From assembly GCA_963575745.1 (NCBI GenBank), contig CAUYUJ010000667.1:46845-110844 (forward strand): 64,000 bases of DNA. Direction: 5' to 3'. Positions within the stretch are counted from its first letter, which is position 1; the number at the start of each line of letters is the position of its first letter. Below are positions 13,563-47,754 of this stretch, one piece after another. This DNA is from Prorocentrum cordatum. Lineage: Eukaryota; Sar; Dinophyceae; Prorocentrales; Prorocentraceae. Both the position numbers and the translations under genes were made by a program. Below the pieces are notes generated by a model. That model was not told the origin of the DNA. It did no database searches and was given only the letters and a program-made list of their open reading frames with translations.

Positions 13563-13759
13563 GTCTCGCCGTTGCGATTTGTCGATTGCCGTTCGCTTCG
13601 CCGGCTCGGGGCTCTAGCAAACGTGGCTTGGCATTGCCGGCCTGTTTTCACTTCCCCGCTCTTTCCCTGATCGTGGATCAGCATTGCTGTCCTGTGATCT
13701 CCCTGTTGCATTTCGCTGTCGTGTCTGCCGACGAACAGGGCGCTGCTGGCACCCAGCCC
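13563..13759 (+). promoter_or_regulatory. G9 leader with two covarying hairpins
   Basis: Hairpin 1 (13623-13644) has 5' arm GGCTTGGC, loop ATT and 3' arm GCCGGCC, with one T.G wobble. Hairpin 2 (13673-13694) has GGATCAGC, ATT, GCTGTCC. The leader is closely similar to those of G10 and G12, including the GGCTC..-13 nt-hairpin spacing and the 26-nt gap to the start position. Where G12 has its ATG, G9 has GTG (13721), followed by codons resembling the others' first residues. The next in-frame ATG is at 13760. Confidence 0.7.
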
Positions 13760-16700: not shown

Positions 16701-18155
16701 CGCGCAGGTTCCGTCGAGGCGGGCGGCGACGCTCATCTGCGCGAGGTCGGCATGTCCGTCCAGGCGGCGGAGGCAACTCTGGAAGCGATGCTGGAGAGCG
16801 CGCGCGAGAGGCCGACGGTGACCACCGCCGATCAACCAGGCGGGGTGAAGAAGAGGAGGCTCCCTCCGAAGAGGGCCGTGAGCGGCGGCAGCGACTTGGC
16901 GGAGCGCAGGATCCCTTACAAATACAAGCGCACTGCGGCCCGTCGCTTCGCGGATGTCCCGGCAGCGCAGGGCTGCCCGGCCCGCGTGCTACATCCGATG
17001 TTGCAGGGCACTGTAGATCTCGACATCCACAGCGCGGTTCTGACAATCGCCTGGCAACTCGTGGAGAAGATGGACATGGCGGAGAAGAATCTGTTCAGAG
17101 AGGAGTTGGAATTGTTGAAGCAGCTGGCCGAGGACAGAGACGAGGTAATGCAGAAGGAGTTGGCGAGCATGGGGCACCAGGCGGCCAAGCGCTTCGTGCT
17201 CGAGACCATCGGCGGGTCCGGCGCTTTCGACGTCGACGCCGAGCCCTTCGCCAAAAAGTTGCAGCGCGTCAGCCGCGTGCTGCGTTGGGTGGCGTGCTCT
17301 GCGTTGCCCGATGTATACGAAGACTTTTCCAGCGACGCCGAGCTTCGCGACGACAAGAAAAAAGAGAAATGGCCGGAGGGGCAGACGTTCTCCACTTTCT
17401 ACCAGCGCGCAGAGGATTACATTCTCCGCCAGTGGCAGACGTGGGTGCTCATGCAGCCGGTGATGCATTTATCGCTGCACTTCGACGGCGTGAGGATCAA
17501 CAGGGACGCGGTGTTCGCCAGGCATACCACGGTGGCGGACTACGCCGCTGGAGCCAGTGCCTACATCGCGCAGGAAACAGGCTTCGTCGTAAAGATCAAA
17601 GAGAAGACCCATCCGACGGTCGAAGAGGCGCTGATAAGCTGCACGGCGTGGCGGCCCCTGGAGGCGGCCGCAGCGCCTGGCGACTTGCAGAAGCCTGGCA
17701 ATGGTATCCTGTTGGCGCTGTGGCGGTGCGGCGACGCCAGGGTGTCCGCGTCCGTTCTCTCTCTCGCAGGCGCCTCGTCAGTAGAGAACAATGCCGCCAG
17801 CGTCGAGAAAGGGGGAACTTACGGGGAGTGTTGCCTGAGTCACAAGGTTTCGGTGGCGCCCCATTTAGGTTTCGATGCGCGCGAGGACGGGCATTATCTG
17901 CTCCACTTGGATGGAGACGGATCGCCGTCTTGCGCACTCCTGCACGTGGCGACCGCGCTCGACAAGGTGTCGGTTTATTTTAAAGATCATGCTGGAGAGG
18001 TGGGTTTGTCAGATGTCCATGACGCCGTCCTCGCGGGGCGAGACTCGAGGCTAGCAGTCACGTTTCGCATTGATTTGTGCCCGGCGGCGCAGGGGGCCGC
18101 CGAAGGCGGCGACGACTCCAGCCCCTTGGCAGGGCTCTCGGGCTTGATGGCGTGA
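13760..18155 (+). pseudogene. G9: OTU-like / D5-like helicase / polymerase-palm-like replication protein, two frameshifts
   Basis: The gene reads in three consecutive frames: 13760-15595, then about 15580-16668, then about 16620-18155. The N-terminal part has an OTU-like cysteine peptidase signature (D64, C67 in DTLCLYH; H188 or H192 in HVVDHW). A D5-like region follows (HDGVMYFWN, then QLFFFWGAGG). The first frameshift, best explained by two extra bases near 15576-15581, splits the Walker A loop; the next frame continues VGLSLTTAHL with leucine where lysine is expected, then a Walker B-like VFYLDEEMR. The second shift lies near 16612-16640 (LLRW, then CRKRNAETM). The last part has palm-like motifs DLDIHSAV, LETIGGSGAF and SLHFDGVRI, reminiscent of family A polymerases. 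The domain calls are by motif only. The breaks could be decay, short introns or sequencing errors. Only the last ~97 codons survive in copies B and C. Confidence 0.6.
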
Positions 18156-18595
18156 GGCGCCGCCGAGCGGGCTGAGCTGTCAGTTAGTAGCAGCGACTGC
18201 GGGAGGCAGAAAACAGGTCAGTCCTCAATGTATCTCGATTGCTCGCGTGGATTCCCATGTGCTTGACCAGATGAAAAGTTATTCTCTCCGAGTCAAGTTT
18301 GGGGCATAGATTTAAATATAATATAAACAGATATATTATGGTCGCAGCGTGAGCCAGGGCCCCCAACTAGTCTGTTAGTTAGCCCGCGTGGATGAGCGAG
18401 CGCTGGTCGCAGGGACACTCAGGACACAGAGCCACTGCGGGAACGGATGGGGATCGGCGCATTCAGTTTCACAGCGCCAGCTATTCATTGGCAGTTCAGT
18501 CGCGTACTCTTCCGTTCGCACCCCGATCTTTGCAGAGGTATCTGCGCGCCTTCTGAGACGCCACTCGCCGCGTCGGCTCAAGGCATATCTTGTAC
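18156..18595. other. Intergenic stretch before G11, copy A
   Basis: No gene. It holds an AT-rich island at about 18295-18345 and, at 18575-18582, GGCTCAAG, which matches the last eight bases of the dinoflagellate spliced leader and lies 13 nt before the first G11 hairpin. The 22 bases ending there match that leader at about 14 positions. Confidence 0.5.
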
Positions 18596-18706
18596 GTGGG
18601 TCGGCTTTGCCGCCCTGTGCTCTCCTCGCTTTGCATTTGCCCGTATTTCTCTGTGGGTCGGCCTTGCCGCCCTGGCACCTCATCGCCTCGCCGCGCGCTA
18701 CCTGGC
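18596..18706 (+). promoter_or_regulatory. G11 leader with two hairpins (copy A)
   Basis: Hairpins at 18596-18617 (GGGTCGGC, loop TTT, GCCGCCC) and 18653-18674 (loop CTT). These are the class with a G-C pair at stem position 5-18, shared only with G13. The ATG at 18707 is 32 nt after the second hairpin. Confidence 0.75.
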
Positions 18707-19453
18707 ATGTGCGATGCTCTCGCGGTTGTCGAAGACGCCGACCCGCGCGGATGGCGAATCCGATGTGTTTCCGGGGTCAAGCGGTCCATCGAGTATGTGT
18801 CAATCCAGCTCCTGAGCAGCACTGGCGAGCTGGTAGATGACGAGAGGCCCGCGACACCAGACCCCTACCTGCCTGACGTCAGCAAGCGGCAGTGGGAGGC
18901 CAAAGTTGTGGCCTGGCGCAGGGAGATGTCACAACTGCTTGACGCAGTGCCAATTGGTGCGACGGAATTGGCAGCGGCCGAAGAGCTCGGCGTCTGGGTA
19001 GAGCCCTCGCCGCCCGCCGTGCGCGGCTGTCGAGCTCTCCTGCAAGATGGAAACTGCATGCTGCTTGCATACAGCATCCTGACGCAAGACTTCTGCGGAC
19101 CGACCGACTATTGTGCGCGATTTCCCGTTCGTCGAGGCGCGGAGCGCCGCTGCGCCGACGTCGCCGACCACTTCGGCTTCTCTCTGGCCGTCGCGCGCCA
19201 GCAGGCTTCGCGGCAGGGTGCATGCCCACTCGTGCCCGGAAAGTATTTCTGTCATATGCGGAGGCATTGCTGCGCTGCGGCAGTCCTTTCAGGGGCAGAT
19301 TCGGTTGTCGTGTGGAGAGGTTTCAGCAGGCACGTTCTGCCGACGGCACAGTGGGTGCGCCGCGTCGAGGAAGTCGAGGGCGCGCTGTTGCACATAACTT
19401 ACAGCGGTGAGGGCGCACTCGGCGTCGATTTAACAGCTGGGCGGAAATCCTGA
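18707..19453 (+). CDS. G11: OTU-like or papain-like cysteine peptidase candidate (copy A)
   Basis: A 248-residue protein. The clearest signal is DGNC at residues 114-117 (LLQDGNCMLLAYS), which resembles the catalytic cysteine loop of OTU-family deubiquitinases (D-G-x-C). A histidine in ALLHITYSG near the C-terminus could be the partner. The middle is Cys/Arg-rich (HMRRHCCAAAVL). The N-terminal 100 residues are unassigned. The start is the first ATG after the hairpin leader. The protein differs from copies B and C at a few residues (CMLL versus CILL). The peptidase call is tentative, and activity cannot be judged from sequence alone. Confidence 0.5.
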   Translation: MCDALAVVEDADPRGWRIRCVSGVKRSIEYVSIQLLSSTGELVDDERPATPDPYLPDVSKRQWEAKVVAWRREMSQLLDAVPIGATELAAAEELGVWVEPSPPAVRGCRALLQDGNCMLLAYSILTQDFCGPTDYCARFPVRRGAERRCADVADHFGFSLAVARQQASRQGACPLVPGKYFCHMRRHCCAAAVLSGADSVVVWRGFSRHVLPTAQWVRRVEEVEGALLHITYSGEGALGVDLTAGRKS

Positions 19454-19698
19454 AGACCGCGGCCGGCAGTTTTCCCCCGAGATGCGCTCGCGCCGCCCCG
19501 GGTGATAAATGCATCACATCCAGAGAGGGATAATGTTGACAAGGAGTAAAGCGAATAGGGTTACATAATGATATCGCGAGATAGAATACGATATCAAATA
19601 TATTCTCTCGTAATTACCTGAACATCGGGGCCACCTTCCACTCGCCGTCGCGATTCGTCGATTGCCGCTCGCTTCATCGGCTCAGGATTCTAGCAAAC
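19454..19698. other. G11-G10 intergenic stretch, copy A
   Basis: No gene. At 19470-19510 a degenerate version of the TTTTTCCCC hairpin (GCG-CTCG-CGC core) lies 16 bases after the G11 stop. An AT-rich patch with GATATC words follows (19565-19605). The conserved G10 leader block begins at about 19648. Confidence 0.5.
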
Positions 19699-19795
19699 GT
19701 GGCTCGGCATTGCCGGCCTGTTTTGATTTCTCCGCTTTTTCCCTGATTGTGGATCAGCATTGCTGTCCTGTAACCCTTCTGTCGCATTTCGTGTC
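19699..19795 (+). promoter_or_regulatory. G10 leader with two hairpins (copy A)
   Basis: Hairpin 1 at 19699-19720 (GGCTCGGC, ATT, GCCGGCC) and hairpin 2 at 19749-19770 (GGATCAGC, ATT, GCTGTCC). The block from about 19648 onward is nearly the same as before G9 and G12. GGCTCAG ends 13 nt before hairpin 1. The ATG is 25 nt after hairpin 2. Confidence 0.8.
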
Positions 19796-21607
19796 ATGGC
19801 CGCCGACGACCAGCGCGTTTCTGCCACCCATGCGTGCCTCAGCTTGGCTCTGAACGCATTGGGAGCACACGTGCCGACCAGCGTGCGAGGCCCATTCCGC
19901 GCGCTCGAGCATGGGAACCAATGGCTGTCACATCTCGGCTTCGCCCTGATCCGGCAGCCGCGGGGTCCGACTGGTCCAGGGCGTTACGTCAAGTGGGAGC
20001 CGCCGCGGCGCGAAGCTGGATTGGCCGCGAGCGTGGGCCACTTCGCGGCCGTCATCCTGCGGCCCGGCAGCGCCACTGTGATAGACCGCCGAGCAGGTCT
20101 GCCAGCGGTTCGCGAGTGGTTGGCGTGGGGCGACATTCCGGACGTCGAGGAGCACAAGTGGTTCTTGTTGGTGGAGCTCGGCGCGCGGAGGCCGGGGCCC
20201 GAGGGCGGCCGCCCTCTTCCATGGGGCGCGACTTCTGGAATTATCGAAGCTCATAGGCTGGACGCACTCATCCGTCGGCGCGCGGCTCGCGAACGAGCGA
20301 CCCCCTATGGGCTGGCGTCATCGTCGGGCTCGCTCGCGCCGCTGGAGGCTGCCCGGGTATCAGCGAACCGAGAGGAGGCAATGCGGCGCAGAGCTTCGCG
20401 TCTGTTCTGCCCGTTGCCGCCGGTGGGGTGGCCCGGCACTCAGGTGCCCCAAGTCCCGTGCGATTTCTCCCTCGAGCTGCCGCGTCTTCCGAAGATCCGC
20501 TTGCTCGAGCGACTCAACGCTCACCCTCGGGACTCCCAGTTGCACTTCGTCGAAGAGTCGCACGCCTATTACATTAGCGGCGCGCGAACGCATGGGTCGG
20601 TCACGGGATTGATACATGAGTACTGCAGTGTTTTCGACGCTGGCGCTGTGATTGGGAAGATGCGGAGCGGGCGGAACTGGCCGCGACCTGATTATTTGCG
20701 CCACCCTCGCCCGGAAGACGTGGTCGCGGAGCTGCGGGCCACGGTGGAGGCTGCTCGCTTGCACGAGTTACTTGTTTCGCACGGGGCTTGCGACGCCGAG
20801 ATCTGCGCCGAGATGAAGGCAACTGCGAGAGCGGCCCCCCACTTGGCAAACCATCTGGAAAGTCTATCTCTCTCGGATCACGAGATCGTGGAGAAATGGC
20901 GCCTGAACAAAGAAGAGGCGGCTAGGCGGGGCACCTGGATGCACTGGACGTTCGAGGCCCACCTCAACCGCGTTCCGGTGCCCCGCGATGCCGTCGAGTT
21001 CCAGTTGTTATTGAAATTCTTGGGCGCGCTGAAAGGTCTGGTGGCTTTCCGCGCCGAGTGGGCCATCTTCGCCGAGCACGAGGGGCTCGCTGGGTCAATC
21101 GACTTCGTGGCTCGAGACTCTGCGGGCAGCCTGTACATATACGATTGGAAGCGGGCGAATAATTTACGTTCGAAGTTCACGAACCCATGGGGGAATATGA
21201 AGTTTCCATTAAGCCGATTGTCAGACTGCCAGGGAAATCATTACCGGGTGCAGCTTAACATCTACAGGTGGATGTTGGAACATTACTACGGCGCCCGCGT
21301 GGCCGCGATGTATGTGGTCTGCCTTCATCCGGACACCGGCGACCAGCCATTTGTGGACGACGTGCCGGTGATCCCAGAGATCGAGGAGCTCATGGCCATT
21401 CAACGCACGAGGTCCCGAGAGTTGCGGGCAATGGCGTCGGAATACACCCGGGAGATAGACCCTCTGGGCGGCTGGCCGCGGCCAGTCGTGGCGGCGCGCA
21501 TGCCTTATTGCCTGAGCACCGCGGCCAATTTCGATCGCGCCTTTCGCCAGATGTCAGTGGACGTCGCGCACTGGCGTTGCCGTTGCGACTGTGCGCCGTT
21601 CTCTTGA
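19796..21607 (+). CDS. G10: cysteine-peptidase-like domain fused to PD-(D/E)XK nuclease (copy A)
   Basis: A 603-residue protein starting MAADDQR. Residues 1-130 contain C14 in HACLSLALNAL, H82 in GHFAAV and D97 in VIDRR, an order and spacing like papain-fold or Josephin-type peptidases. Residues ~260-510 carry a PD-(D/E)XK nuclease signature: HAYYISG and SVTGLIHEY, GTWMH at 379-383, E421, D436 in SIDFVA, the DWK triad at 450-452, and Q486 in QLNIYRW. This layout matches Cas4/RecB-like and viral exonuclease-like families. It probably processes DNA ends during replication or recombination of the element. The start is the first ATG after the leader, in good context. The nuclease call is firm; the peptidase call is tentative. 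Confidence 0.75.
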   Translation: MAADDQRVSATHACLSLALNALGAHVPTSVRGPFRALEHGNQWLSHLGFALIRQPRGPTGPGRYVKWEPPRREAGLAASVGHFAAVILRPGSATVIDRRAGLPAVREWLAWGDIPDVEEHKWFLLVELGARRPGPEGGRPLPWGATSGIIEAHRLDALIRRRAARERATPYGLASSSGSLAPLEAARVSANREEAMRRRASRLFCPLPPVGWPGTQVPQVPCDFSLELPRLPKIRLLERLNAHPRDSQLHFVEESHAYYISGARTHGSVTGLIHEYCSVFDAGAVIGKMRSGRNWPRPDYLRHPRPEDVVAELRATVEAARLHELLVSHGACDAEICAEMKATARAAPHLANHLESLSLSDHEIVEKWRLNKEEAARRGTWMHWTFEAHLNRVPVPRDAVEFQLLLKFLGALKGLVAFRAEWAIFAEHEGLAGSIDFVARDSAGSLYIYDWKRANNLRSKFTNPWGNMKFPLSRLSDCQGNHYRVQLNIYRWMLEHYYGARVAAMYVVCLHPDTGDQPFVDDVPVIPEIEELMAIQRTRSRELRAMASEYTREIDPLGGWPRPVVAARMPYCLSTAANFDRAFRQMSVDVAHWRCRCDCAPFS

Positions 21608-22013
21608 GGTGCCGTTGCCATTGCCGAATGCCAACTGGCAGCGGATGAAAATGGCGCGCGTGGGCTCTGCGGGAGCCACGCTGACAGCCGCGTGCTCTCA
21701 ACTTCCGCAGAAGTAGCGATGCCCTCGCATGAAGGAGTGCGTGGATGCGACGCTTGCGTAGCCAAAAAAAGAAATTGTTATGTGTATCAACAACAGCCGA
21801 AGCGGAGAGGGACACCCAGAGATATCATATATCCCATGCCATCATTGCAAAGAGTAAATGCCGACGCAAGTTGCGCTACCCAACAGGCGACGCGCGCAAA
21901 GTCCGCTCGGGAGTAGCATGGAATATGATTTTTCCCCAGCTCGCGTTTCGGCGATGCGCGGGGGGAAAAATCAGCACGGCCGTTCGCTTCATCGGCTCAG
22001 GATTTTAGCAAAC
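21608..22013. other. G10-G12 intergenic stretch with strong hairpin, copy A
   Basis: No gene. A perfect 11-bp hairpin (GATTTTTCCCC at 21927-21937 and its complement at 21962-21972) lies 320 bases after the G10 stop. The G12 leader block begins about 21980 with GGCTCAG 13 nt before its first hairpin. Confidence 0.65.
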
Positions 22014-22111
22014 GTGGCTCGGCATTGTCGGCCTGCTTTGACTTCCCCGCTCTTTCCCTGATTGTGGATCAGCATTGCTGTCCTGTGATCTCTCTGACGT
22101 GCCTCGGCGCC
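22014..22111 (+). promoter_or_regulatory. G12 leader with two hairpins (copy A)
   Basis: Hairpin 1 at 22014-22035 (GGCTCGGC, ATT, GTCGGCC; one G.T wobble) and hairpin 2 at 22064-22085 (GGATCAGC, ATT, GCTGTCC). Spacing is 50 nt start to start, as in G9 and G10. The ATG follows 26 nt after hairpin 2. Confidence 0.8.
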
Positions 22112-22951
22112 ATGGCCACCGACGACCAGCGCGCTGCCAGTTCTCCATTTCTGAGCTCGCAGTCCCCTGAGGTGGGCGTCCCGACGCCTGGCGGGAGGGC
22201 TCGCCAGCGGCGCGCGTACTCTGGCGCCCGCTCGCTGACGCCGGCGCGCAGGAAGCTTCGACTGTCCTCGCGGGCTGCGCGCGCGGCTGCAGCGCGAACA
22301 CCTTCATCGTCTCCGGAAAGAGACGACGCCGCTGACATCGAGACTTTCGCGCTGATGGTATCGAAGATCTCAAATGAAGCATTCGATTCTATTATGGCAT
22401 GCTTCCCTTCCTTGCGGAGACGGGCATTAGCGCGTGTTTTCGCATTGGATCAACATATTCGCCAAGACAAAACGTTCATCCTCGTGAAACCTTTCAGTTC
22501 GAGCGGGCCCAGGGCCTCGCGTGGCCCGCACGGTGCCGGACTGCCCGGAGTCCTCGCTGTTGTGCCTTGCTGGTTTCAGCCTGCCAACGCAGAACTTGCC
22601 TCGGTGACAGCCCCCAGCCCTGTTCACGATCGCTGTTTCCTTTGCGGGATGGACGACGGCGACGTCGACGGCATCGGCCACTATCTGGAAGGGTGCGTGG
22701 CCACGGTGAGATCATTTCCTTTCCCCGAATTGATGCATTTGCGCGCAGCGACCTCCGCGTGGGCCATGTTGGCGCAGCGATTGAAACATCGCGGCGACGT
22801 CTTCGCATGCGCGCGGTGCAGCGGAGTCTGCGTCGCCTGGGAAGACACCCTGAACATAGATTTCACCGCCGATATGCTCAGACTGCACCGGCGACACGCG
22901 GCTGAAGAGCAAGCAGGGACGTCGGCCGACTCGCGCCCGCGACTGGACTAG
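22112..22951 (+). CDS. G12: zinc-finger protein (copy A)
   Basis: A 279-residue protein. The N-terminus MATDDQRA resembles the first residues of G10, as if leader and start were copied together. The next ~70 residues are Ser/Arg/Ala-rich and probably disordered. Then come C175-x2-C178-x11-H190-x4-C195 (CFLCGMDD and GHYLEGC), a C2HC pattern like the zinc-binding tails of reverse-transcriptase-related proteins, and a second CxxC (ACARCSG) near the end. No reverse transcriptase core is present. It could bind nucleic acid. The start is the first ATG after the hairpin leader. Confidence 0.6.
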   Translation: MATDDQRAASSPFLSSQSPEVGVPTPGGRARQRRAYSGARSLTPARRKLRLSSRAARAAAARTPSSSPERDDAADIETFALMVSKISNEAFDSIMACFPSLRRRALARVFALDQHIRQDKTFILVKPFSSSGPRASRGPHGAGLPGVLAVVPCWFQPANAELASVTAPSPVHDRCFLCGMDDGDVDGIGHYLEGCVATVRSFPFPELMHLRAATSAWAMLAQRLKHRGDVFACARCSGVCVAWEDTLNIDFTADMLRLHRRHAAEEQAGTSADSRPRLD

Positions 22952-23217
22952 GGGGGATGCGGCGGCGCTGACGCCATTGCGCGGCCCTCAGTCGAGAGCG
23001 GGCCGTGACTTCCGATCGAACCTTTGCGTAGACAAAATCGCGACTTCTCAATCATCTCAATATTTTCTCCTCGCCTTCACACGTGCCCAACGTGGCGCGG
23101 GGCCTTCATGTCGCTTGATATCCCCCATTGCCTAGCTCTTACATATTCGACGGCAGCGCCGCTGATGGATCGTTGCCTATCTCTTCATCACCCTACGGCT
23201 CAAGACATGCATTCCCC
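22952..23217. other. G12-G13 intergenic stretch, copy A
   Basis: No gene. It holds GGCTCAAG at 23197-23204, 13 nt before the first G13 hairpin, as in the G11 leader. No terminator-like hairpin is seen. Confidence 0.5.
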
Positions 23218-23320
23218 GTGGGTCGGCTCTGCCGCCCTGTGTTTTCTCTGCAATCTCACCCGTGGGTCGGCCTTGCCGCCCTGTTTTGTTTTCTCCTACC
23301 ACCTTTCTGCGCTATCTCAC
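23218..23320 (+). promoter_or_regulatory. G13 leader with two hairpins (copy A)
   Basis: Hairpins at 23218-23239 (GGGTCGGC, loop TCT, GCCGCCC) and 23262-23283 (loop CTT), the same class as in the G11 leader. The ATG is 37 nt after the second. Confidence 0.75.
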
Positions 23321-25567
23321 ATGCGCGGCGCGCCCGCTCGCCAGGAGCAGGACGGTGCCAGGCTCGCGCCGGCGCCGGCTCGGAGACGAATCAGAAGCAA
23401 GAGCACGGCGGACGACGTCGGCGAGGGCTGGGTTTGCCTCGCGGCCGAGCAGCGCCAGCCCCACGAGCTCGCGGACGTGGGCTCGGCGGATGCACCTGAA
23501 TCCCCGAGCGGCGACGAGGGCGAAACAGCAGTGCGCGCAGAGTTGTTCGAGCGCCTGGAAAAGGAAGTCAAGAGTTACGCTGCGGGGGTGACGCTCCTGC
23601 GCCCCAAGCGGGACAGCGAGGGCGTCAAACTGAAATTTGCTTGCGGCCTATGCCCGTTCCGATCGTTCACGACGCAGGCGCTCTTGGCCTCGCACGTCTC
23701 CAAGTATCACCTCAGAAAGACGCGCTTCGTGGCCTCGGGCACGAAGCAGTTCAATGCCGTGTGCGCGTTGTTCGACAACGACCGGCTCCTGCGAGCTCCA
23801 ACAGGGAACCTGCTGAAGCGATCTGCGACGATCCTGCGGGAGACAGTATCTCCTGCTGTTCATCGCGGACAGAACGCCATTGACAAGGACATCGTCCTGG
23901 TCCTCGACGACGACGGGCCGTCGTATCAAAACAAGGCAGCAGTCGGGCAAAATCTCGCGTGCAGACGAGTGGGGTACACATAATATACCCGTGGCTTCGC
24001 CGATATCCTGTTGCAGGAGTCCTTGCGCCATCATGGGCGCGTTCGCCCGACGATGCTGCGGACGTGCGCTCGCGTCGTGGAGCAGGGCTCCGAGCTGAGC
24101 AGCATGTTGCCGACGCGCGTTGATCACTGGCTGAAGCTTATGGAAGACGCGTTCAACAGCGCGCACGTAGAGAGGCGCAGCACTGCGTTGATGGAAGAAT
24201 GCCACCGGCATGAGGAATTCCTCCACGTCTCCATGGACGCCACTATCCGCATTCTGCGCAGGGTCAAGGGCCAGGCGGATTATCGGTCCGCACAAGCAGT
24301 GCGCGACGCTGCACCCGTGCCGGACGTGGACGCCAAGCGCCGCGTCCTGACTCTCGCGGGCAGGACGGGCGCGGCGCTCGGTGTTTTCCTGACGAAGGAC
24401 GAAGGCGCTGATGAAATAGCTGAGGCCATTGCAGCTCGTTGGTCGGCGGCGTGCAGATTGCAGACGGCGTCCGTCGCCAGTGACCAGCCGAGCAGCGCGC
24501 TATTCCGCGCCTTGCGAGGTTCATGTTTTCCTGGACTATCAGTCTTGAGTCTCGACCCAGTTCATCTGCCCATCACGTACGAGGAGACGCACTGGAGAAA
24601 AAAGACGGTGGGATCGCGACTATTGCGGATTCTAATGGCCAAGTTTACGAAGGTGGATTGCACGCTACCCGCGCAATACTGGGGGGCGCCGTTCGACGGG
24701 ACGAACGCCCCAGCTCTGCGGCCAATAGAAGAGCGCGCGCGAGCACAGATACTCGATCATTCATTCGCGAAGTCGCGAGCTCAACATGTGATCGACCACG
24801 TGAACGCCGAGCTGCCATGGAAAACAACGCATGAGTTCATCGAGTCTATCGCCGCGCTGAGCGCGTTGGTTCCAGAAGAGCTTGCTCGCCGCACCCACGT
24901 GAACAACGTTCAACTCAAGAGGTTGCTTTACAATGCGACCGCCCCTGCTCGCATGCAATGGTTCTTCAATAATCAGCGATTCAGGCATTCCTTGCCGGCG
25001 GCGCGCTTGGCTCTGTTGGGGTCTGGCACGTCCGTCAACGAATCCTTCAACCACGAGATCAACACGTGGTTTCGCAACCAGGGGGACATCTACGCTTCGA
25101 CGGCGGAGCTTCAACTTAGGATTGGGTTTCTGGGGAAGCTGCAAGCCCACAGTTGCGCGCTGTATTCCCCGACGCTGCGGCAGCTGCGACAGGCCAACGT
25201 GCTATCGCGAAGCATTATGGCCTGGGCTTTTCCCCGAGATGACTGGAAGAGTTACTGCGCGCTCCAGGCGCAGTGCGGCACCGACGTCCTGGCGCCTGCA
25301 CGACTTCCGCTCCGCGAAGCCCGACAAAGAGTCGCGCGGCTGATTGCCGAGCGCGCTGCGTGCGTTCGGGGGAAGCCAGCGGCGCGCGAGGCCGCGCCTG
25401 CCGGGCGGCGCGGTGCTCAGAAGAAGCCCGCTGCAAGGGCGCTCTTGGACAGTCTGCGCGATCGTAGAGAGCCTAGGATCAAGAGAACAGCTTTCACTTT
25501 GAAGCGCAAGCCTGCGTCGCGCGGGGCCCCTGGCCAGGCTCCCGCCGCGCGCGCTTGCCAGCGGTGA
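23321..25567 (+). CDS. G13: C2H2 finger plus DDE-type transposase-like protein, interrupted by an in-frame TAA (copy A)
   Basis: The first part (to TAA at 23981-23983) holds a C2H2 finger: C108-x2-C111-x13-H125-x4-H130. The same frame continues after the stop to 25567. That part has candidate catalytic acids D (24236, VSMDATIRI), D (24554, SLDPVHLP) and E (25040, NESFNHEINTWF), and a basic Lys/Arg-rich tail. A 48-base, phase-0 GT-AG segment (23969-24016) would remove the stop and give 732 residues. Otherwise the stop is a nonsense mutation. It is shared with copy B, so it predates the duplication. A zinc-finger DNA-binding transposase is the best reading. The exact superfamily is not resolved. 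Confidence 0.55.
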
Positions 25568-27475: not shown

Positions 27476-27502
27476 GACGGCCACTGGATGCTCACCAGGC
27501 AA

Positions 27503-27705
27503 ACCTATCGCAAAGCAGCGTTTGCGATAGGTGCGCGCGGAGGCCCGTCAACCCCTCCAGCTGGGTTTTAAAAACCCGTCTGGGGCACAATACAGCCGCC
27601 GGAGAGCCCCAAGGAGGCTCTAGCAGGGCTCCAGTGGAGCTCTGGAATGCCACGGGATGCCCCCCGGGCACACCTATCGCAAAGCAGCGTTTGCGATAGG
27701 TGTGC
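27503..27705. repeat. Two ACCTATCGCAAA hairpins in reverse orientation, copy A
   Basis: Hairpins at 27503-27532 and 27668-27705 have the loop GCAGCG, the reverse complement of CGCTGC. The family is thus inserted in both orientations, about 165 bases apart as in the forward pair. Confidence 0.85.
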
Positions 27706-28619
27706 GCGGGGCCCTGTCAAAGCCCCCCAATTAATTTGTGAATGCCCTTATGGAGCTCTTGGGAGCCACTGGACAGCCCAGAGAAGGCTCCAGCAAGACC
27801 AGGAAGCTCAAGAAAGCCCAAAGGAGCCCAAGACGGCCCTTCAGGAACACTGAACAGCCCAACAACTTACCAGATGAGGTCTATGTGATCACTCTGTTTC
27901 CAAAAGTGAAAACGAAAGGCGTCACAGGTGACAGCATTCCTCTTCGTCGTCGTCGTCGCCGTCGTCGTCGTCCTCCTCCTCGTCCTGTTCTCCCTAGTCA
28001 TCGTCACCTTCATCCTCGTCCTCCACATGATCACCATACCCTGGCTTTCGGAGCTCTCTTGAAGTCATCTTGGGGTTCTCTTGTGGCCTTTTAGGCTTGC
28101 GAAGGCCCTCTGGGGGTTCGCCTGGAAGCCCCCCAAAGACCGAGAGAGCCACCAGAGGGGCTGCAGGGGTATCAACAACATTTTTTCGCAAGCCGCAAGA
28201 GGCCTCAAAATTGCTCCACGAGAGCCCCAAGAGAGCTCTAAGGAAGAGTTCGAAAAAGCTCTAGATAGCCAAAGCTATTGTTTGAAAGCGCTGCCGCGTT
28301 CCGCCCCAAATAGCTCGGACCCTCATGATGCCCTCTTGGGATTGAGCTCGACGCCGCAGCATTGCGCGTCGAGACTTATCGCGGCTCTCTTGACGCTCTA
28401 CGGGAGAACCCCACGAAACCCTAATTAACTCACAGTGGCGCTGCAGATAGCGCGTTAGTCATATAGCACATTCGCGACATCATAACCCGAGCCGATGATC
28501 GTATTCTTTAATATCGGTGATTATAGCGCACGTCCTAGCAGCTAATCGTCCCTATCGCCTCTGTTATCGGCGCGGTCCGAATTGCAGCTGTATCTCCCTC
28601 GAGATATTGTCTCTTTGGC
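27706..28619. other. Intergenic stretch before G1, copy A
   Basis: No gene. It holds degenerate CAAGAGGCC-type repeats, a TCG/TCC trinucleotide-rich patch (about 27940-28025), and a decayed GGGAAAGC-type hairpin near 28285. The last 150 bases are mixed composition. Confidence 0.5.
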
Positions 28620-28773
28620 GTGGCTCGGTTTTGCCGGCCTGTCATTCTACTTCTTGCGCGGCTCGGCATTTCCGGCCTATCAATATACCCCTTACGTGGC
28701 TCGGCATTGCCGGCCTGCTTTTGCATTATCCCGTTTCTGTTCGTGGCTCGGCATTGCCGGCCTGGTCTCCGCC
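28620..28773 (+). promoter_or_regulatory. G1 leader with four hairpins (copy A/B border)
   Basis: Hairpins at 28620-28641 (T.G wobble at the loop end), 28658-28679 (one mismatch), 28696-28717 and 28743-28764, all of the GGCTCGGC / GCCGGCC class. Start-to-start spacings are 38, 38 and 47 bases, so translated copies fall in different frames. The ATG is only 9 nt after the last hairpin. Confidence 0.8.
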
Positions 28774-31401
28774 ATGTCGCCTCAGATCGTCATCTTCTAC
28801 AACGTAGTCATGCCGGATCGGCCACGCCTGCGACGCGGCGCAGTGGATCTACCCGACATCGGTGTCAAGAATGAAGATTGGGGGTCCGAATTGCGCGGCA
28901 ACGCTTCTTTCACAGACGCCTGGGAGTTCGGCGTGCCCTTGGAGGCAGGCTTCAAGATCGGCGATAGGGTCTCCCAGGTTCTCTCCTTGACAGTGGCAGC
29001 CAGCAACCGCGAGACCATCCGCCCGCGGGCCGACGGTCGCCCCCGCGTTATCCGCGGCCGCAGTGGCGCCCTGAAGAGTGCGAGGAGTTTCTGCGTCTCC
29101 TGCGCTTGCGCGGTCGACGCGGACCGCGCCGCCGACGCCAGGGCCGCTCTGCAAGACTTTACCTCTGGTCAGCGATCGAGCCTGTTTGCTTTGCTCCGCG
29201 GCCCAGCGAGCATGGGCATCCGACTTGCGCTGGGAAGCATTCTGGACTCCATGGAGGAGCAGCTCCTCGATTGGAAACCTCGGATCAAAAACAACAAGGA
29301 TGCGCTGAACAAGGAGCTGGATCGTTGGACTGGTCTCGGGCGCGTCCTCCAGCGAGCGGCCTACGGCGCTCCCGTGCAGCTGGGGTGGTCGGACTTGGAG
29401 GAGTTTGTGGTGTCTCGGGATCCTTGCCGCTTCGGCCCAGGCGTCGGGCTGGGCCGAATGCTCGGCGAGCAATGCAGCTGCGGAGTGTTATCTTTCCGCA
29501 GCAATGCGCAGAAACACTATGGCGACGTCGTCCCGGAGAGCATGTGGGCCCCTTACGTCGTACATCAGCTGAAGAACAATTGCATCCACGCGTTTCTGGC
29601 TGGCGAAATTACCTATTCTGGCACCGGCAACGTCCTCGTGCCAGCCTGCGCGAACGACGTTGACTGCAGCCTCGACGTCTGGGACACGTTGATCCTGGAC
29701 CACCCCGTTGTGGACCCGGACCACGTTCGCGATCACGTGGCGCTCGTCGTGGCGGAAGAGCAGATGCGGGCGGTCGCGGCCGCTGCGGCGGAGAAGCAGA
29801 CGGGGGCAGGCGCAGATGTATTCCCCGCGCTCGCGAACGGTGAGAAAGGGTCTCTCTTCGTCGAGGCCGTGGAGCGCGGTGAGCTCCACCTGTGCCTTGC
29901 GACCGCGGGCACTGACGAGGAGCCGCTCCTGCGACTGCAGCGCGGGACGTCAGTCCGCGGTCGGGTATTCGTTTGCATCGGTGAATATGTTGGCGCCGAG
30001 GCAAATGCTATCGCGGCCTTGAAGCGCAGCCTCCGCACTGATCCGTCGCCGTGCTGCCGGTCGCTGCTGCCGGAGCACGGCGTGGCATCCGCTGGCGGCC
30101 AGCGCAATCCCAGTGTCTTCCGGCAGATGAGTTCCGAGGAGATCTTGAAGCAGTCCACGGACATCGGCAAAAAGTTCACGAACGCCCAGATGCAGTTCAT
30201 CCGCCGCGCACTTGACCGGGAAGACGGCGCTGCTCTGTGCGAAGCCTACCCTGGCACTGGCAAATCAGCGACGGCGGCAGGCATCATTGCTAACGCGGCG
30301 AGCCATTGCTCTGGCAATGCCAAGTGCGTGGCCCTCGCCCAGCAGCGTGCCATGCGCGACGAGCTGCTGTCCAACATCCGATCCGCGCTAGACGACCCGC
30401 TGGCCGCCGCCGGCGTCGGCCGACCTGCGGACGAAGCTCCGTCAGACGACGACGGTTATCTGGATTCGCAACTGCTATCGGCAGTGAGCGGGCGATTCAC
30501 AGACCTGCAGATGCGCATCGAGGAACTGCGCAACGACCTGGCCGCCGTTCGCTGCAATCCGGACGAGGGCGCGCTCGAGCGGAGAGAGTGGTTGGAGAAG
30601 ACGGAGCTGATGCGGCACCTGTGCTTCGAGTACGACGCCCTCCAGGAGGAAGCCGCGGAGAAGCAGTTCCACGACGTGCGCGTCTTCGCCATGACCATCG
30701 ACGCTTTCAACAACGCCCAGAGCGGCCGCAGCTGGTTGTCCAGGATCTTCAAGCGGTTCGAGATTGCATTCGTCATCATCGACGAGGTGCACCAGGCTAA
30801 TTTCGGCGAAGTGTACGCCGCGTTGCAGTCAGCGCCGAGCGCGGTCGTGTACTTGGACTCCGCCCAGGAGATCCGCCACCGACCTGCGACGGAGTTCCTG
30901 CGGGAGCCGAGGCCCGACAGAGCAGGTAATTACTACGAGTGGCAGATGGCCTGCCACGGGAAGTCCCGCGTGCGTGCTTGGGGCCATGTTCCCGCAGACA
31001 GCGTCTTGTCCTTGCCAGTCGCACATCGGTTCGGCCCTGCGCCTGCCAAACTCCTCAGGGCAATCTCAGCTGTCTACGGTCGGCCTGGCCGGGAAATCAA
31101 GTGCGCGATCGAATGCGCCCGAGAGAGCGGGGACTCGTCCGTGGACTTGTCGATTGCCCCGTACACTGCGATGCGCTTCGTGTTCTACAGGGGCGCGCGA
31201 TGGATTCCATCGCTATCCCGCGGCGTACTCGCCGACGACGCAGAGGAGGTGGGCCAGGTTGATCGCGCAGCTCCGGGCTCGTCTGCCGCGGGGGCAACGA
31301 GGTCACGAACGTCGACGTTGCGCGCCGGAGCTTCCGACGTCATTTTCGCCCAGATGCTGTTCGAGGGCTTGTTCTTCCTGCGCGTGCTGGCGAGAGGTTG
31401 A
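28774..31401 (+). CDS. G1: SF1 (Pif1/UPF1-like) helicase, complete
   Basis: An 875-residue protein (MSPQIVIF start, first ATG after the hairpin leader). The N-terminal ~430 residues have no recognised domain. The helicase core begins with a Q-motif-like FTNAQMQF (468 on), Walker A PGTGKS (493-498), Walker B IIDEVHQ (D670, E671), motif III-like LDSAQE (694-699) and motif IV-like AHRFG (750-754). Motifs V and VI were not found. The last ~90 residues are Ala/Ser-rich, and other frames there also look protein-like, so the end may be frame-shifted or spliced. The gene spans the arbitrary A/B border. It is identical in copy B (49226-51853). It is probably an element-encoded replication or repair helicase. 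Confidence 0.75.
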   Translation: MSPQIVIFYNVVMPDRPRLRRGAVDLPDIGVKNEDWGSELRGNASFTDAWEFGVPLEAGFKIGDRVSQVLSLTVAASNRETIRPRADGRPRVIRGRSGALKSARSFCVSCACAVDADRAADARAALQDFTSGQRSSLFALLRGPASMGIRLALGSILDSMEEQLLDWKPRIKNNKDALNKELDRWTGLGRVLQRAAYGAPVQLGWSDLEEFVVSRDPCRFGPGVGLGRMLGEQCSCGVLSFRSNAQKHYGDVVPESMWAPYVVHQLKNNCIHAFLAGEITYSGTGNVLVPACANDVDCSLDVWDTLILDHPVVDPDHVRDHVALVVAEEQMRAVAAAAAEKQTGAGADVFPALANGEKGSLFVEAVERGELHLCLATAGTDEEPLLRLQRGTSVRGRVFVCIGEYVGAEANAIAALKRSLRTDPSPCCRSLLPEHGVASAGGQRNPSVFRQMSSEEILKQSTDIGKKFTNAQMQFIRRALDREDGAALCEAYPGTGKSATAAGIIANAASHCSGNAKCVALAQQRAMRDELLSNIRSALDDPLAAAGVGRPADEAPSDDDGYLDSQLLSAVSGRFTDLQMRIEELRNDLAAVRCNPDEGALERREWLEKTELMRHLCFEYDALQEEAAEKQFHDVRVFAMTIDAFNNAQSGRSWLSRIFKRFEIAFVIIDEVHQANFGEVYAALQSAPSAVVYLDSAQEIRHRPATEFLREPRPDRAGNYYEWQMACHGKSRVRAWGHVPADSVLSLPVAHRFGPAPAKLLRAISAVYGRPGREIKCAIECARESGDSSVDLSIAPYTAMRFVFYRGARWIPSLSRGVLADDAEEVGQVDRAAPGSSAAGATRSRTSTLRAGASDVIFAQMLFEGLFFLRVLARG

Positions 31402-31487
31402 GGGGGTGCCGAAGCTTTCGCGCGCTCAGACCCCTCCCCTCCATCCCGTTCTCCCATCCTACAACGACGCATAGAACTCCACCGCGC

Positions 31488-31531
31488 ATTTTTCCCCTGG
31501 AGCTGCGTTCGCGCCGCTCGGGGGAGAAAAT
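31488..31531 (+). other. 3' hairpin downstream of G1 (copy B)
   Basis: The TTTTTCCCC / GGGGAGAAAA hairpin with TTCG loop, unchanged from copy A. Confidence 0.5.
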
Positions 31532-31639
31532 CTGCGTCGCCGAGAGCGGGGAGAAGGGGGTCTGTCGAAGCTGCGCCCGTTGTCGAATGCTTTGGGACCA
31601 CTGTCAGGCGAGGTGAGCAAGCGCGTTGGCGGGCCGCGC

Positions 31640-33271
31640 ATGTCGCTGGAGTCGACCACGAAGGCGGTTTTGACCATGATCCTTGCGAACGACGTGGGCG
31701 TCAATTTCGCCACGTTGGTGCGAGGTGCTCTGGAGGACGAGGAAGTGCGGGCGGCGTTCGGTCCACCGGACTTCGTGGCTGATGCCCCCAAGCTCTGGCG
31801 CGTGATGACGCCCGAGGCTGCCATGGGCTCCGACGGCCTCCTCGCGCAGACCACGCTGTTTCCCGGGGACCTCTCCGCGCATGACCTGCAGGGCCACGCG
31901 AAGGAGCCCAACCGACACAACGTGGCCTTCTCCAGGTGCATTCTTTTCGCTTCGTCGCACGAGTGCGAGGAGTGCTTCGACGACCGCGACGCGGCTCCGC
32001 ACTGGCGGAGGCATCAGGCTTACACCTCGGATGCAGGCGGCGACTTGGACATCGAAAAGATCGACTGCCGCGGGCCCGGCGCGGAGAAGCCTGCGCGGCC
32101 GGAGTGGTTCACGTCGCCCGGCGGCGCTGCGGGGGCAAGTCAGATGTTCCGCGCCGTCGCGACCTTCCTGTCCCCCATCCCGCGCGTGGTCGCGAAGCTC
32201 CGCAATCGGGCGGCACGCGCGCAGGTGCGCCCGCTGACGGCGCAACCCATATCCATTGCGCATGCGGTCGGAGACGCCTGCGAGTGGATGATGGACAGAG
32301 GAGCCCTGCCGACGGCCGCTCGTGAGCAAACTTCGCAGGCGATGCCTCTCCAGACTTCCTCGTGGGTGAGCCAGCCCGACATGTACGGTCTCGCGTCGGA
32401 CCCGACCGCGCTGCGCGCAGTTCGAAGCCAACTACTCAAGCACTTGGGGGTCGTGGTTCAGAACGGCCGAGCTGCGATTACGGCCATGTACTTGGACGCC
32501 ACTCGAGCGCGGGACGACGAAGCGGCTCCTCGCAGTGCGACAGTGGAGCGCGCGATGGCCGCAGGGCGGGTGATTGCGTTGCATGCGGTCCAGCTCTTCC
32601 CCGACGCTTTCGCGGCAGAGTTTCCCTTGCGGGCGACGCCCATGCCCAGGAAGAGGCTGCGCCTGGGCGGCGCTGTGCTGCGAGAGAGCTGGGAGGCTCG
32701 CGCTGCTTTGGCATTGGCGTTGGAGCGCCCTGGTGGTGGCGACCCGAGGATGCTCATGTACCAGTTCTTGGGGGATAACAAAAAGGGCAACCGGGCATCG
32801 GCGGACCCGCCCAGCACGTTCCCCTTGCACTTCCGCGACATGCCGATCAACGTAGCTCAGGCTCTGGCTGCGACATTACTTTTTTTCACTGGCGCAGAGA
32901 TCTCGGGGAAGATGGTGGTCGTTCGCCCGCGAGCACCGACGCCTGAGCACCGTAAGGGGGCCGCGGACGTGAGTCGGGATATCATATGCGCAGTGAATTC
33001 AATGTCTGGAATTCTTCGCAGGAGGCACGGGCCCCCGGCCGACGTGCATTTGCCGCGCGCACCCAACTCAGCTGGCGCCGATGCCGCGCGAAAGTGCGTG
33101 GAGGAGGCGTTCAATTGCATCCTCTGCTCGAACACAGGCGTGCTGGAATATTTTTCGAGCCAGGGCGGCAAGATCCGGGAATTTTGTATGCTCTGCGAGA
33201 CGTGCAACCTGCGCAGTGGCAGCGGCTGCTGGCCCGACGATGCGACGCCGTGCCCTGCGTGCGCAGTCTAG
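31640..33271 (+). CDS. G2: protein with eight-cysteine RING-like C-terminus, intact (copy B)
   Basis: A 543-residue protein. The N-terminal ~480 residues are unassigned (predicted helical parts such as FATLVRGALEDEEVR; CEECFD near residue 110). The C-terminus has exactly eight spaced cysteines: C493, C496, C516, C519, C522, C530, C538 and C541 (CILC, CMLCETC, C, CPAC). This fits a cross-brace two-zinc RING-like or treble-clef fold with all-cysteine ligands. RING domains often act as ubiquitin ligases, an inference here. The gene follows G1 by 238 bases and has no hairpin leader of its own, so it might be co-transcribed with G1. The start is the first in-frame ATG. Identical in copy C. Confidence 0.65.
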   Translation: MSLESTTKAVLTMILANDVGVNFATLVRGALEDEEVRAAFGPPDFVADAPKLWRVMTPEAAMGSDGLLAQTTLFPGDLSAHDLQGHAKEPNRHNVAFSRCILFASSHECEECFDDRDAAPHWRRHQAYTSDAGGDLDIEKIDCRGPGAEKPARPEWFTSPGGAAGASQMFRAVATFLSPIPRVVAKLRNRAARAQVRPLTAQPISIAHAVGDACEWMMDRGALPTAAREQTSQAMPLQTSSWVSQPDMYGLASDPTALRAVRSQLLKHLGVVVQNGRAAITAMYLDATRARDDEAAPRSATVERAMAAGRVIALHAVQLFPDAFAAEFPLRATPMPRKRLRLGGAVLRESWEARAALALALERPGGGDPRMLMYQFLGDNKKGNRASADPPSTFPLHFRDMPINVAQALAATLLFFTGAEISGKMVVVRPRAPTPEHRKGAADVSRDIICAVNSMSGILRRRHGPPADVHLPRAPNSAGADAARKCVEEAFNCILCSNTGVLEYFSSQGGKIREFCMLCETCNLRSGSGCWPDDATPCPACAV

Positions 33272-39055: not shown

Positions 39056-39166
39056 GTGGGTCGGCTTTGCCGCCCTGTGCTCTCCTCGCTTTGCATTTAC
39101 CCGTATTTCTCTGTGGGTCGGCCTTGCCGCCCTGGCACCTCATCGCCTCGCGGCGCGCTACCTGGC
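39056..39166 (+). promoter_or_regulatory. G11 leader with two hairpins (copy B)
   Basis: Hairpins at 39056-39077 and 39113-39134, unchanged from copy A. Confidence 0.75.
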
Positions 39167-39913
39167 ATGTGCGATGCTCTCGCGGTTGTCGAAGACGCCG
39201 ACCCGCGCGGAAGGCGAATCCGATGTGTTTCCGGGGTCAAGCGGTCCATCGAGTATGTGTCAATCCAGCTCCTGAGCAGCACTGGCGAGCTGGTAGATGA
39301 CGAGAGGCCCGCGACACCAGACCCCTACCTGCCTGACGTCAGCAAGCGGCAGTGGGAGGCCAAAGTTGTGGCCTGGCGCAGGGAGATGTCACAACTGCTT
39401 GACGCAGTGCCAATTGGTGCGACGGAGTTGGCAGCGGCCGAAGAGCTCGGCGTCTGGGTAGAGCCCTCGCCGCCCGCCGTGCGCGGCTGTCGAGCTCTCC
39501 TGCAAGATGGAAACTGCATACTGCTTGCATACAGCATCCTGACGCAAGACTTCTGCGGATCGACCGACTATTGTGCGCGATTTCCCGTTCGTCGAGGCGC
39601 GGAGCGCCGCTACGCCGACGTCGCCGACCACTTCGGCTTCTCTCTGGCCGTCGCGCGCCAGCAGGCTTCGCGGCAGGGTGCATGCCCACTCGTGCCCGGG
39701 AAGTATTTCTGTCATATGCGGAGGCATTGCTGCGCTGCGGCAGTCCTTTCAGGGGCAGATTCGGTTGTCGTGTGGAGAGGTTTCAGCAGGCACGTTCTGC
39801 CGACGGCACAGCGGGTGCGCCGCGTCGAGGAAGTCGAGGGCGCGCTGTTGCACATAACTTACAGCGGTGAGGGCGCACTCGGCGTCGATTTAACAGCTGG
39901 GCGGAAATCCTGA
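39167..39913 (+). CDS. G11: OTU-like cysteine peptidase candidate (copy B)
   Basis: 248 residues, open throughout. DGNC is conserved, followed by ILLAYS rather than MLLAYS. Other replacements relative to copy A include W to R early, P to S after DFCG, and C to Y in ERRYAD. Identical to copy C. Conservation of DGNC across diverged copies is compatible with function. Confidence 0.5.
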   Translation: MCDALAVVEDADPRGRRIRCVSGVKRSIEYVSIQLLSSTGELVDDERPATPDPYLPDVSKRQWEAKVVAWRREMSQLLDAVPIGATELAAAEELGVWVEPSPPAVRGCRALLQDGNCILLAYSILTQDFCGSTDYCARFPVRRGAERRYADVADHFGFSLAVARQQASRQGACPLVPGKYFCHMRRHCCAAAVLSGADSVVVWRGFSRHVLPTAQRVRRVEEVEGALLHITYSGEGALGVDLTAGRKS

Positions 39914-40158
39914 AGACCGCGGCCGGCAGTTTTCCCCCGAGATGCGCTCGCGCCGCCCCGGGTGATAAATGCATCACATCCAGAGAGGGATAGTGTTGAC
40001 AAGGAGTAAAGCGAATAGGGTTACATAATGATATCACGAGATAGAATACGATATCAAATATATTCTCTCGTAATTACCTGAACATCGAGGCCACCTTCCA
40101 CTCGCCGTCGCGATTCGTCGATTGCCGCTCGCTTCATCGGCTCAGGATTCTAGCAAAC
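39914..40158. other. G11-G10 intergenic stretch, copy B, holding the duplication join
   Basis: No gene. Diagnostic bases switch here from copy C-like (TAGTGTTGAC near 39992; ATCACGAG near 40035; ATCGAGG near 40088) to copy A-like (GGCCACC near 40093), so the join of the recent duplication or crossover lies in about 40040-40095. A degenerate TTTTCCCCC hairpin lies at 39930-39970. Confidence 0.7.
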
Positions 40159-40255
40159 GTGGCTCGGCATTGCCGGCCTGTTTTGATTTCTCCGCTTTTT
40201 CCCTGATTGTGGATCAGCATTGCTGTCCTGTAACCCTTCTGTCGCATTTCGTGTC
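40159..40255 (+). promoter_or_regulatory. G10 leader with two hairpins (copy B)
   Basis: Hairpins at 40159-40180 and 40209-40230, unchanged from copy A. Confidence 0.8.
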
Positions 40256-42067: not shown

Positions 42068-42473
42068 GGTGCCGTTGCCATTGCCGAATGCCAACTGGCA
42101 GCGGATGAAAATGGCGCGCGTGGGCTCTGCGGGAGCCACGCTGACAGCCGCGTGCTCTCAACTTCCGCAGAAGTAGCGATGCCCTCGCATGAAGGAGTGC
42201 GTGGATGCGACGCTTGCGTAGCCAAAAAAAGAAATTGTTATGTGTATCAACAACAGCCGAAGCGGAGAGGGACACCCAGAGATATCATATATCCCATGCC
42301 ATCATTGCAAAGAGTAAATGCCGACGCAAGTTGCGCTACCCAACAGGCGACGCGCGCAAAGTCCGCTCGGGAGTAGCATGGAATATGATTTTTCCCCAGC
42401 TCGCGTTTCGGCGATGCGCGGGGGGAAAAATCAGCACGGCCGTTCGCTTCATCGGCTCAGGATTTTAGCAAAC
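42068..42473. other. G10-G12 intergenic stretch, copy B
   Basis: No gene. The perfect 11-bp GATTTTTCCCC hairpin is at 42387-42397 and 42422-42432. Confidence 0.65.
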
Positions 42474-42571
42474 GTGGCTCGGCATTGTCGGCCTGCTTTG
42501 ACTTCCCCGCTCTTTCCCTGATTGTGGATCAGCATTGCTGTCCTGTGATCTCTCTGACGTGCCTCGGCGCC
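42474..42571 (+). promoter_or_regulatory. G12 leader with two hairpins (copy B)
   Basis: Hairpins at 42474-42495 and 42524-42545, unchanged from copy A. Confidence 0.8.
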
Positions 42572-43411: not shown

Positions 43412-43677
43412 GGGGGATGCGGCGGCGCTGACGCCATTGCGCGGCCCTCAGTCGAGAGCGGGCCGTGACTTCCGATCGAACCTTTGCGTAGACAAAATCG
43501 CGACTTCTCAATCATCTCAATATTTTCTCCTCGCCTTCACACGTGCCCAACGTGGCGCGGGGCCTTCATGTCGCTTGATATCCCCCATTGCCTAGCTCTT
43601 ACATATTCGACGGCAGCGCCGCTGATGGATCGTTGCCTATCTCTTCATCACCCTACGGCTCAAGACATGCATTCCCC
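43412..43677. other. G12-G13 intergenic stretch, copy B
   Basis: No gene. GGCTCAAG lies 13 nt before the first G13 hairpin. Confidence 0.5.
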
Positions 43678-47714: not shown

Positions 47715-47754
47715 AAGGGCGTTCGCCAGACTTCAGAGTGCGACTTAATCTGCG

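Follow-up and report, generated by a model that had tools for sequence, protein, structure and literature searches.

The window, a stretch of 64,000 nucleotides of the Prorocentrum cordatum genome, contains units of a multi-gene element arranged head to tail, and all genes of the element lie on one strand. The genes are as follows.

13700 to 18155, plus strand: G9, a large protein with a helicase-like centre recognized by eye; no Pfam match.
18707 to 19453, plus strand: G11, predicted SLBP-type RNA-binding domain at about residues 16-76, followed by an OTU-like part that resembles a cysteine protease by eye.
19796 to 21607, plus strand: G10, PD-(D/E)XK nuclease.
22112 to 22951, plus strand: G12, no Pfam match.
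23321 to 25567, plus strand: G13, a C2H2 zinc finger match that is weak (0.029, below the cut-off) and a DDE-transposase-like part recognized by eye.
28774 to 33271, plus strand: G1 including its broken-off rest G2 (31640-33271), helicase (ResIII, 3.3e-06 in the window copy).

G9 is present in the first unit only and absent from the other two units of the window. The region concerned is 8282-17863, and the junction adjoins simple-repeat arrays. The window copies of G9, G13 and G1/G2 are broken, and other copies of the element carry open frames: G9, frame-broken here, is open in C4565 and C5572; G13, interrupted here by an in-frame stop, is open in C4947; and G1 with G2 forms one open frame in C4565, a divergent copy in which the helicase match is absent. 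G2 was accordingly rejected as a separate gene and treated as the frame-broken rest of G1. Protein identity among element copies in the fetched stretches is mostly 70-100%; it drops to 60% over the final part of G9, and the G1/G2 copies of C182 and C4565 reach only 37-40%. Relatives of G9 with 35-53% identity are found in other dinoflagellates (Effrenium voratum) and in metagenome sources, and a Skav-numbered protein related to G9 presumably belongs to Symbiodinium kawagutii. Many of these relatives also include G10- and G13-like parts as fusions, as far as domains can be read by eye. The helicase-like centre of G9 (L089 2834-7336; P0013, P0014, P0018, P0020) contains, as judged by eye, a Walker-A-like GGVG(L/Q)S that lacks the usual lysine, together with the motifs DLDI..N and LHFDG, which resemble those of transposon-viral polymerases.

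Each of the six genes is preceded by copies of a 22-nucleotide hairpin with the consensus GTGG-N-T-CRGC-NNN-GCYG-N-CCTG, of which positions 1-2 and 21-22 are mostly unpaired. A complete set comprises fourteen hairpins, four for G1 and two each for G9, G10, G11, G12 and G13.

13623 to 13644, plus strand: G9 leader, hairpin 1, pattern match.
13673 to 13694, plus strand: G9 leader, hairpin 2, pattern match.
18596 to 18617, plus strand: G11 leader, hairpin 1, pattern match; in place in 20 of 20 further copies.
18653 to 18674, plus strand: G11 leader, hairpin 2, pattern match; in place in 20 of 20 further copies.
19699 to 19720, plus strand: G10 leader, hairpin 1, pattern match.
19749 to 19770, plus strand: G10 leader, hairpin 2, pattern match.
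22014 to 22035, plus strand: G12 leader, hairpin 1, pattern match.
22064 to 22085, plus strand: G12 leader, hairpin 2, pattern match.
23218 to 23239, plus strand: G13 leader, hairpin 1, pattern match.
23262 to 23283, plus strand: G13 leader, hairpin 2, pattern match.
28620 to 28641, plus strand: G1 leader, hairpin 1, pattern match, 35.6 bits.
28658 to 28679, plus strand: G1 leader, hairpin 2, one mismatch, six of seven pairs, 28.5 bits.
28696 to 28717, plus strand: G1 leader, hairpin 3, pattern match, 38.1 bits.
28743 to 28764, plus strand: G1 leader, hairpin 4, 9 nucleotides 5' of the start codon.
39056 to 49216, plus strand: twelve hairpins of the second unit, starting at 39056, 39113, 40159, 40209, 42474, 42524, 43678, 43722, 49072, 49110, 49148 and 49195.
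59436 to 62925, plus strand: six hairpins of the third unit, starting at 59436, 59493, 60539, 60589, 62854 and 62904.

Pattern matching placed the hairpins where the initial annotation of this DNA had put them, fourteen per complete set, and agreed with its account of seven pairs and a bulged T, of C-G, G-C or A-T at pair 5-18 and G-C or A-T at pair 8-16, and of a sole mismatch in the hairpin at 28658-28679. The annotation had also assigned the four G1 copies to different reading frames; three frames are indeed used, but the first and last hairpins share one. With up to three mismatches allowed, there are 39 pattern matches in the window, against a mean of 1.39 and a maximum of 5 in 100 shuffles. 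Hairpins account for 32 of the 39 (14 in the complete set, 12 in the second unit and 6 in the third), every one on the plus strand and 5' of one of the six element genes; the other seven are weaker and lie elsewhere. Matches at 2282 and 2373 (with the copies of both) and at 16231 were dismissed as chance, having weak letters and mid-gene or antisense positions. Throughout the 4.13-Gb assembly, the exact pattern occurs 285 times (173 + 112), and the reversed pattern 6 times. A scan by letters and pairs of the window and 20 other genomic stretches gave 123 matches, 118 of them in sense leaders. A script placed 102 of them in the sense leaders of G1 and G10-G13. The remaining 21, sorted by hand, comprise ten in G9 leaders, four in a truncated G1 copy (C803), two in C2646, where a G1-type leader is joined to G13, and five antisense, all of these at one place within G9 coding sequence. 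In the joined copy (L085, C2646:65463-65526) a G1-type two-hairpin leader precedes a long open frame made up of the remainder of G13, apparently a deletion derivative. Hairpins lie 9 to 133 nucleotides before the start codon; for each gene the distances are almost constant, most G11 copies having 32 and 89, and they shift in steps not divisible by three. No Rfam family matched anywhere in the window at the gathering score, and a search of 27500-29000 at E up to 5 gave nothing at the hairpins. A pattern scan of IMG/VR returned 68 stretches with one scattered match each, taken as chance.

Among 29 distinct hairpin sequences the loop has three nucleotides, the bulge is U in 28, and G4 is retained in 27. 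Covariation was evaluated over the 203 pair cells of these sequences with 500 shuffles. Paired cells make up 98.5% (88.1% in shuffles), double-change cells number 22 (8.2 in shuffles), and the covariation score is 0.379 (0.173 in shuffles); none of the 500 shuffles was as high in any of the three, and sliding the structure along the hairpins left only 25-60% of cells paired. The double changes are confined to two of the seven pairs, 5-18 (CG 14, GC 9, AU 6) and 8-16 (GC 19, AU 7, GU 3), and two of the five covariation measures are not above shuffles (double-change pairs, 2 versus 2.0; further pair types, 8 versus 8.6). Because the shuffle control ignores relatedness, the better evidence is that states differ between leaders and that hairpins contrast with spacers. 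Folded as single RNAs, three of four hairpin types adopt the consensus structure; the fourth, an unusual copy from C182, folds with a shifted bulge.

In the leader alignments, differences were counted in 164 of 3300 comparisons at paired columns, 157 of 1900 in loop, bulge and flank, and 2787 of 12660 in spacers, a per-site divergence of spacers 4.4 times that of the paired columns of the same leaders; in the G10 leaders alone (four copies), non-paired hairpin columns diverge more (12 of 96) than spacers (23 of 654). Hairpin-less G10 leaders (C524, C957, C4565), leaders with less than 55 nucleotides before the first hairpin, and identical duplicates had been dropped. Exact hairpin matches had served to recruit these stretches, a bias towards hairpins, and for this reason a second search used G11 coding DNA alone, removing the bias for G11 only. 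Of 52 candidates 40 were scored, giving 31 close copies, one partial and eight distant; leaders from 20 of the 31 close copies all contain both hairpins, and 38 of these 40 hairpins have all seven pairs. The initial annotation had proposed selection on nucleic-acid structure and had named an excess of compensatory changes in genome copies as its check; the 22 double-change cells against 8.2, unmatched in any shuffle, and the more divergent spacers support the proposal. The hairpins could instead be functionless, alike merely as parts of recently copied leaders, and the leaders of G9, G10 and G12 are clearly copies of one cassette; against this stand the spacer divergence and the fact that the leaders of G11, G13 and G1 share little beyond the hairpins, so that an absence of function, already disfavoured, is very improbable. 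At the level of sequence, the hairpin structure, its covariation and constraint, and its sense-only placement before start codons are established.

Five of the six window leaders have, 12-13 nucleotides 5' of the first hairpin, a motif resembling the end of the dinoflagellate spliced leader.

13603 to 13610, plus strand: GGCTCGGG in the G9 leader, at the equivalent place, a variant of GGCTCAAG.
18575 to 18582, plus strand: GGCTCAAG before G11, identical to the last 8 nucleotides of the dinoflagellate spliced leader, 13 nucleotides 5' of hairpin 1.
19679 to 19686, plus strand: GGCTCAGG in the G10 leader, at the equivalent place; also in the G12 leader at 21994-22001.
23197 to 23204, plus strand: GGCTCAAG before G13, 13 nucleotides 5' of hairpin 1.

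In the window the motif is exact in G11 and G13 and one or two letters off in G9, G10 and G12; among more distant copies of G9 and G12 some have it exactly, as do 14 of 20 further G11 leaders. At that place it is missing from the G1 leaders and from the G9 leader of C4565; the G1 leader of the C182/C4565 type has GGCTCAA 26 nucleotides before. The G12 leader of C182 matches the spliced leader over nearly its full length (background fraction 0.0015), and most single matches are modest (about 0.02-0.3). Several homologous blocks (G9, G11, G13) extend from just 5' of the motif to at most 12 nucleotides past the stop codon. The G13 leader has an upstream ATG at 23207, between the motif and hairpin 1; the G1, G10, G11 and G12 leaders of the window have none. 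The motif is probably a trans-splice acceptor or a spliced-leader relict, and either, being 5' of the hairpins, would put the hairpins within the mature 5' leader.

The suggestion in the initial annotation of an RNA element or a protein-binding site that coordinates the genes of the element is supported by these results, and sense-only placement, a one-sided bulge and a spliced-leader-like motif just 5' favour RNA over DNA. A signal acting as DNA (a promoter, a transposase site, or a hairpin extruded from single-stranded DNA) might be expected of an element of replicative appearance, whose genes include a helicase, a nuclease and a transposase-like one, some of them recognized by eye. We nevertheless find such a signal improbable, as the hairpins stand in a single orientation directly before start codons, the bulged T breaks the dyad symmetry, covariation keeps pairing and not a fixed base sequence, and the element encodes an SLBP-type protein.

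The arrangement of G11 and G10 differs among copies. In C4565 they form a single open frame, within which G10 lacks hairpins of its own. This arrangement recurs in C957 and C524, again without G10 hairpins; the G11-G10 joint of C957 is open with a frame break near the G11 start, and in C524 the break is near the G11 end. In copies of the window type, G11 and G10 are separate, and the G10 leader, with hairpins, matches the G9 and G12 leaders. As G10 has hairpins only where it is separate, the hairpin leader behaves as a module that accompanies each separate gene, and the split of G11 from G10 is probably the derived state.

This fusion, together with the motif, bears on the idea that the hairpins serve trans-splicing or processing, marking or exposing a spliced-leader acceptor for each gene of a polycistronic transcript. 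The position of the motif in the window leaders of G9-G13, the limits of the homologous blocks, the location of all genes on one strand and the single G11-G10 frame would all fit. An acceptor 5' of the hairpins, however, leaves them in the mature mRNA, and the G1 leaders do without the motif at that place; we regard a processing role as unlikely. No more likely is its variant in which cutting is done by the G11-G10 fusion, with an SLBP-type domain and a PD-(D/E)XK nuclease in one frame: the G10 nuclease matches phage exonuclease families, and families of that kind act on DNA.

To judge by its sequence, the product of G11 contains a divergent domain of the SLBP (histone hairpin-binding) type, which is a new finding. 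Of ten element frames scanned with PF15247 (gathering score 27 bits), only G11 matched, at 2.2e-4 and under the cut-off; when the aligned members were compared with PF15247, 12 of 12 matched at E up to 1, the best at 9.7e-07. The G11 copies of the window score 21.6 and 24.8 bits, below the cut-off of 27. Four members were scanned singly: L125, 51% identical to G11, reaches 29.2 bits, above 27, covering positions 5-64 of 70, and L123, L089 and P0001 fall below it at 19.2-22.9 bits. A custom profile built from five SLBP-type proteins (one human, one fly and three of P. cordatum) gave 26.9-30.6 bits on G11 copies (best of 1000 shuffles, 5.6) and 16.7-25.4 bits on eight distant relatives (best of 800 shuffles, 6.6). 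Compared profile to profile with those five sequences, G11 matched over 61 columns (93.9%, E 1.6e-07), and with human SLBP alone the match was weak (probability 1.7%, E 0.029). SLBP-like stretches in the relatives P0018, P0020 and P0022 scored 14.0, 15.2 and 7.7 bits, where the best of 1000 shuffles reached 6.6; they were set aside, being absent from the Pfam matches.

G11 retains the TPD, S-K-R-x-W and W-R signature of SLBP, much of which is invariant across relatives about 50% identical: T50-P51-D52 is the same in all 12 members, and R61 in 11 of 12. In human SLBP, a passage of PMC10388802 has Arg181 contacting a stem guanine. R61 of G11 matches this guanine-reading Arg. G4 of the element hairpin is presumably to be placed opposite G7 of the histone stem-loop. 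The N-terminal Y-G-K-N-T motif is absent from G11, which has I-E-Y-V-S, and host SLBP-type proteins likewise deviate from it. The SLBP RNA-binding domain is a three-helix fold. AlphaFold models were too poor to use for full-length G11 (mean pLDDT 32.9) and poor for the domain (mean pLDDT 57.6; long helices 13-38 and 60-80). Foldseek with the poor domain model returned no SLBP (best E 6.7), and PDB sequence searches with G11 likewise returned none. No such hairpin was found in the 2.2 kb fetched for the eight distant G11 relatives, a span outside which gene starts may fall. The G11 protein was also used to scan IMG/VR, where five stretches matched a pattern and none was a relative. In a more distant P. 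cordatum family, L121-L128, the SLBP core lies in a longer protein, apparently with introns as judged by eye, and L099 and L100 (C13309, C15736) represent a host gene that combines an N-terminal part resembling RNA 2'-phosphotransferase by eye with an SLBP-type domain.

A whole-genome PF15247 search did not have G11 among the four places it listed; these are other SLBP-type places, all above the cut-off, the best at 55.4 bits. A host protein, such as the host SLBP at C1670, could therefore be the reader of the hairpins as RNA leader elements, G11 having some other task; we consider this rather unlikely, and with it the corollary that the element would exploit S-phase control or some other host programme. 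The element hairpin and the histone stem-loop presumably share a GG..CC stem base, which would suit such a reader, but a search of the host with RF00032 found none (75 of 552003 candidates scored), and the element has an SLBP-type gene of its own, with the signature largely invariant among relatives that are only about 50% identical. A likely binder, which the initial annotation had not named, is G11 itself.

The explanation we prefer, and hold to be somewhat probable, is that the hairpins are 5'-leader RNA hairpins of the element mRNAs and that the SLBP-like G11 of the element binds them, forming a post-transcriptional regulon. Element transcripts would be trans-spliced just 5' of the hairpins, and the mature mRNA would consist, in order, of the spliced leader, about 12 nucleotides, the hairpins and the start codon. 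G11, going by its homology, would bind the hairpins and jointly control the translation or stability of the element mRNAs, including its own. With hairpins near the cap, translational control by the bound protein is the likeliest outcome, and repression and activation are alike possible: iron-responsive elements repress, and SLBP on histone mRNA activates translation. That the hairpins are part of the mRNA, that G11 binds them and that control is coordinated are all inferred. The wider proposal, on which our judgement is evenly divided, is that a eukaryotic DNA mobile element captured an SLBP-type domain and placed two to four matching bulged hairpins before each of its genes as a regulon of its own, and that a new gene arising by a split (G11-G10) receives the hairpin leader as a module.

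If this is correct, the element carries both its own trans factor and the cis code, an SLBP-type domain is used outside histone mRNA, and a eukaryotic DNA element brings its own RNA control code. Regulation in dinoflagellates is thought to be largely post-transcriptional, and few RNA signals are known. A hairpin that covaries strongly, keeps a set position and has a named candidate binder makes the proposal directly testable in vitro. Among the titles and abstract openings of the literature searched, neither such a hairpin-bearing element nor an SLBP-type domain that acts on other than histone mRNA was found.

Several known systems share parts of this arrangement. Dinoflagellate spliced-leader retrogenes have spliced-leader-like sequence in the DNA 5' of the start codon (passages of PMC6050394 and PMC12014239), their mark being a relict CCATTTTGGCTCAAG before the start codon (PMC12014239). 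The element leaders are like the retrogenes, as these passages present them, in having DNA-encoded spliced-leader-like sequence, although most match only the last 8 nucleotides or fewer; the hairpins do not figure in the passages that describe the retrogenes (PMC6050394, PMC12014239). The histone mRNA 3' stem-loop with SLBP (RF00032, PF15247) likewise pairs a short hairpin with an SLBP-type domain, but the element hairpin is located 5' of the start codon in two to four copies (in the window), has a bulged U, seven pairs and a 3-nucleotide loop, serves the genes of a mobile element and does not match the Rfam model RF00032. The histone stem-loop differs in its loop and belongs to the 3' UTR; its stem presumably has the same GG..CC base, with G second, as G4 is in the element hairpin. 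The iron-responsive element with IRP would be similar in that a set of mRNAs shares a 5'-leader hairpin close to the cap, in which a single-base bulge is conserved. It has a bulged C and a CAGUGN loop, whereas the element hairpin has a U bulge, a 3-nucleotide loop, tandem copies, a candidate binder of another family and no Rfam match. The operator hairpin and coat protein of RNA phages offer a further parallel, in which a mobile genome controls its own genes through a protein of its own that attaches to a bulged hairpin close to a start codon; here, in contrast, it is a DNA element in a nuclear genome that has the hairpin, at six genes, and the candidate binder is an SLBP-type protein.
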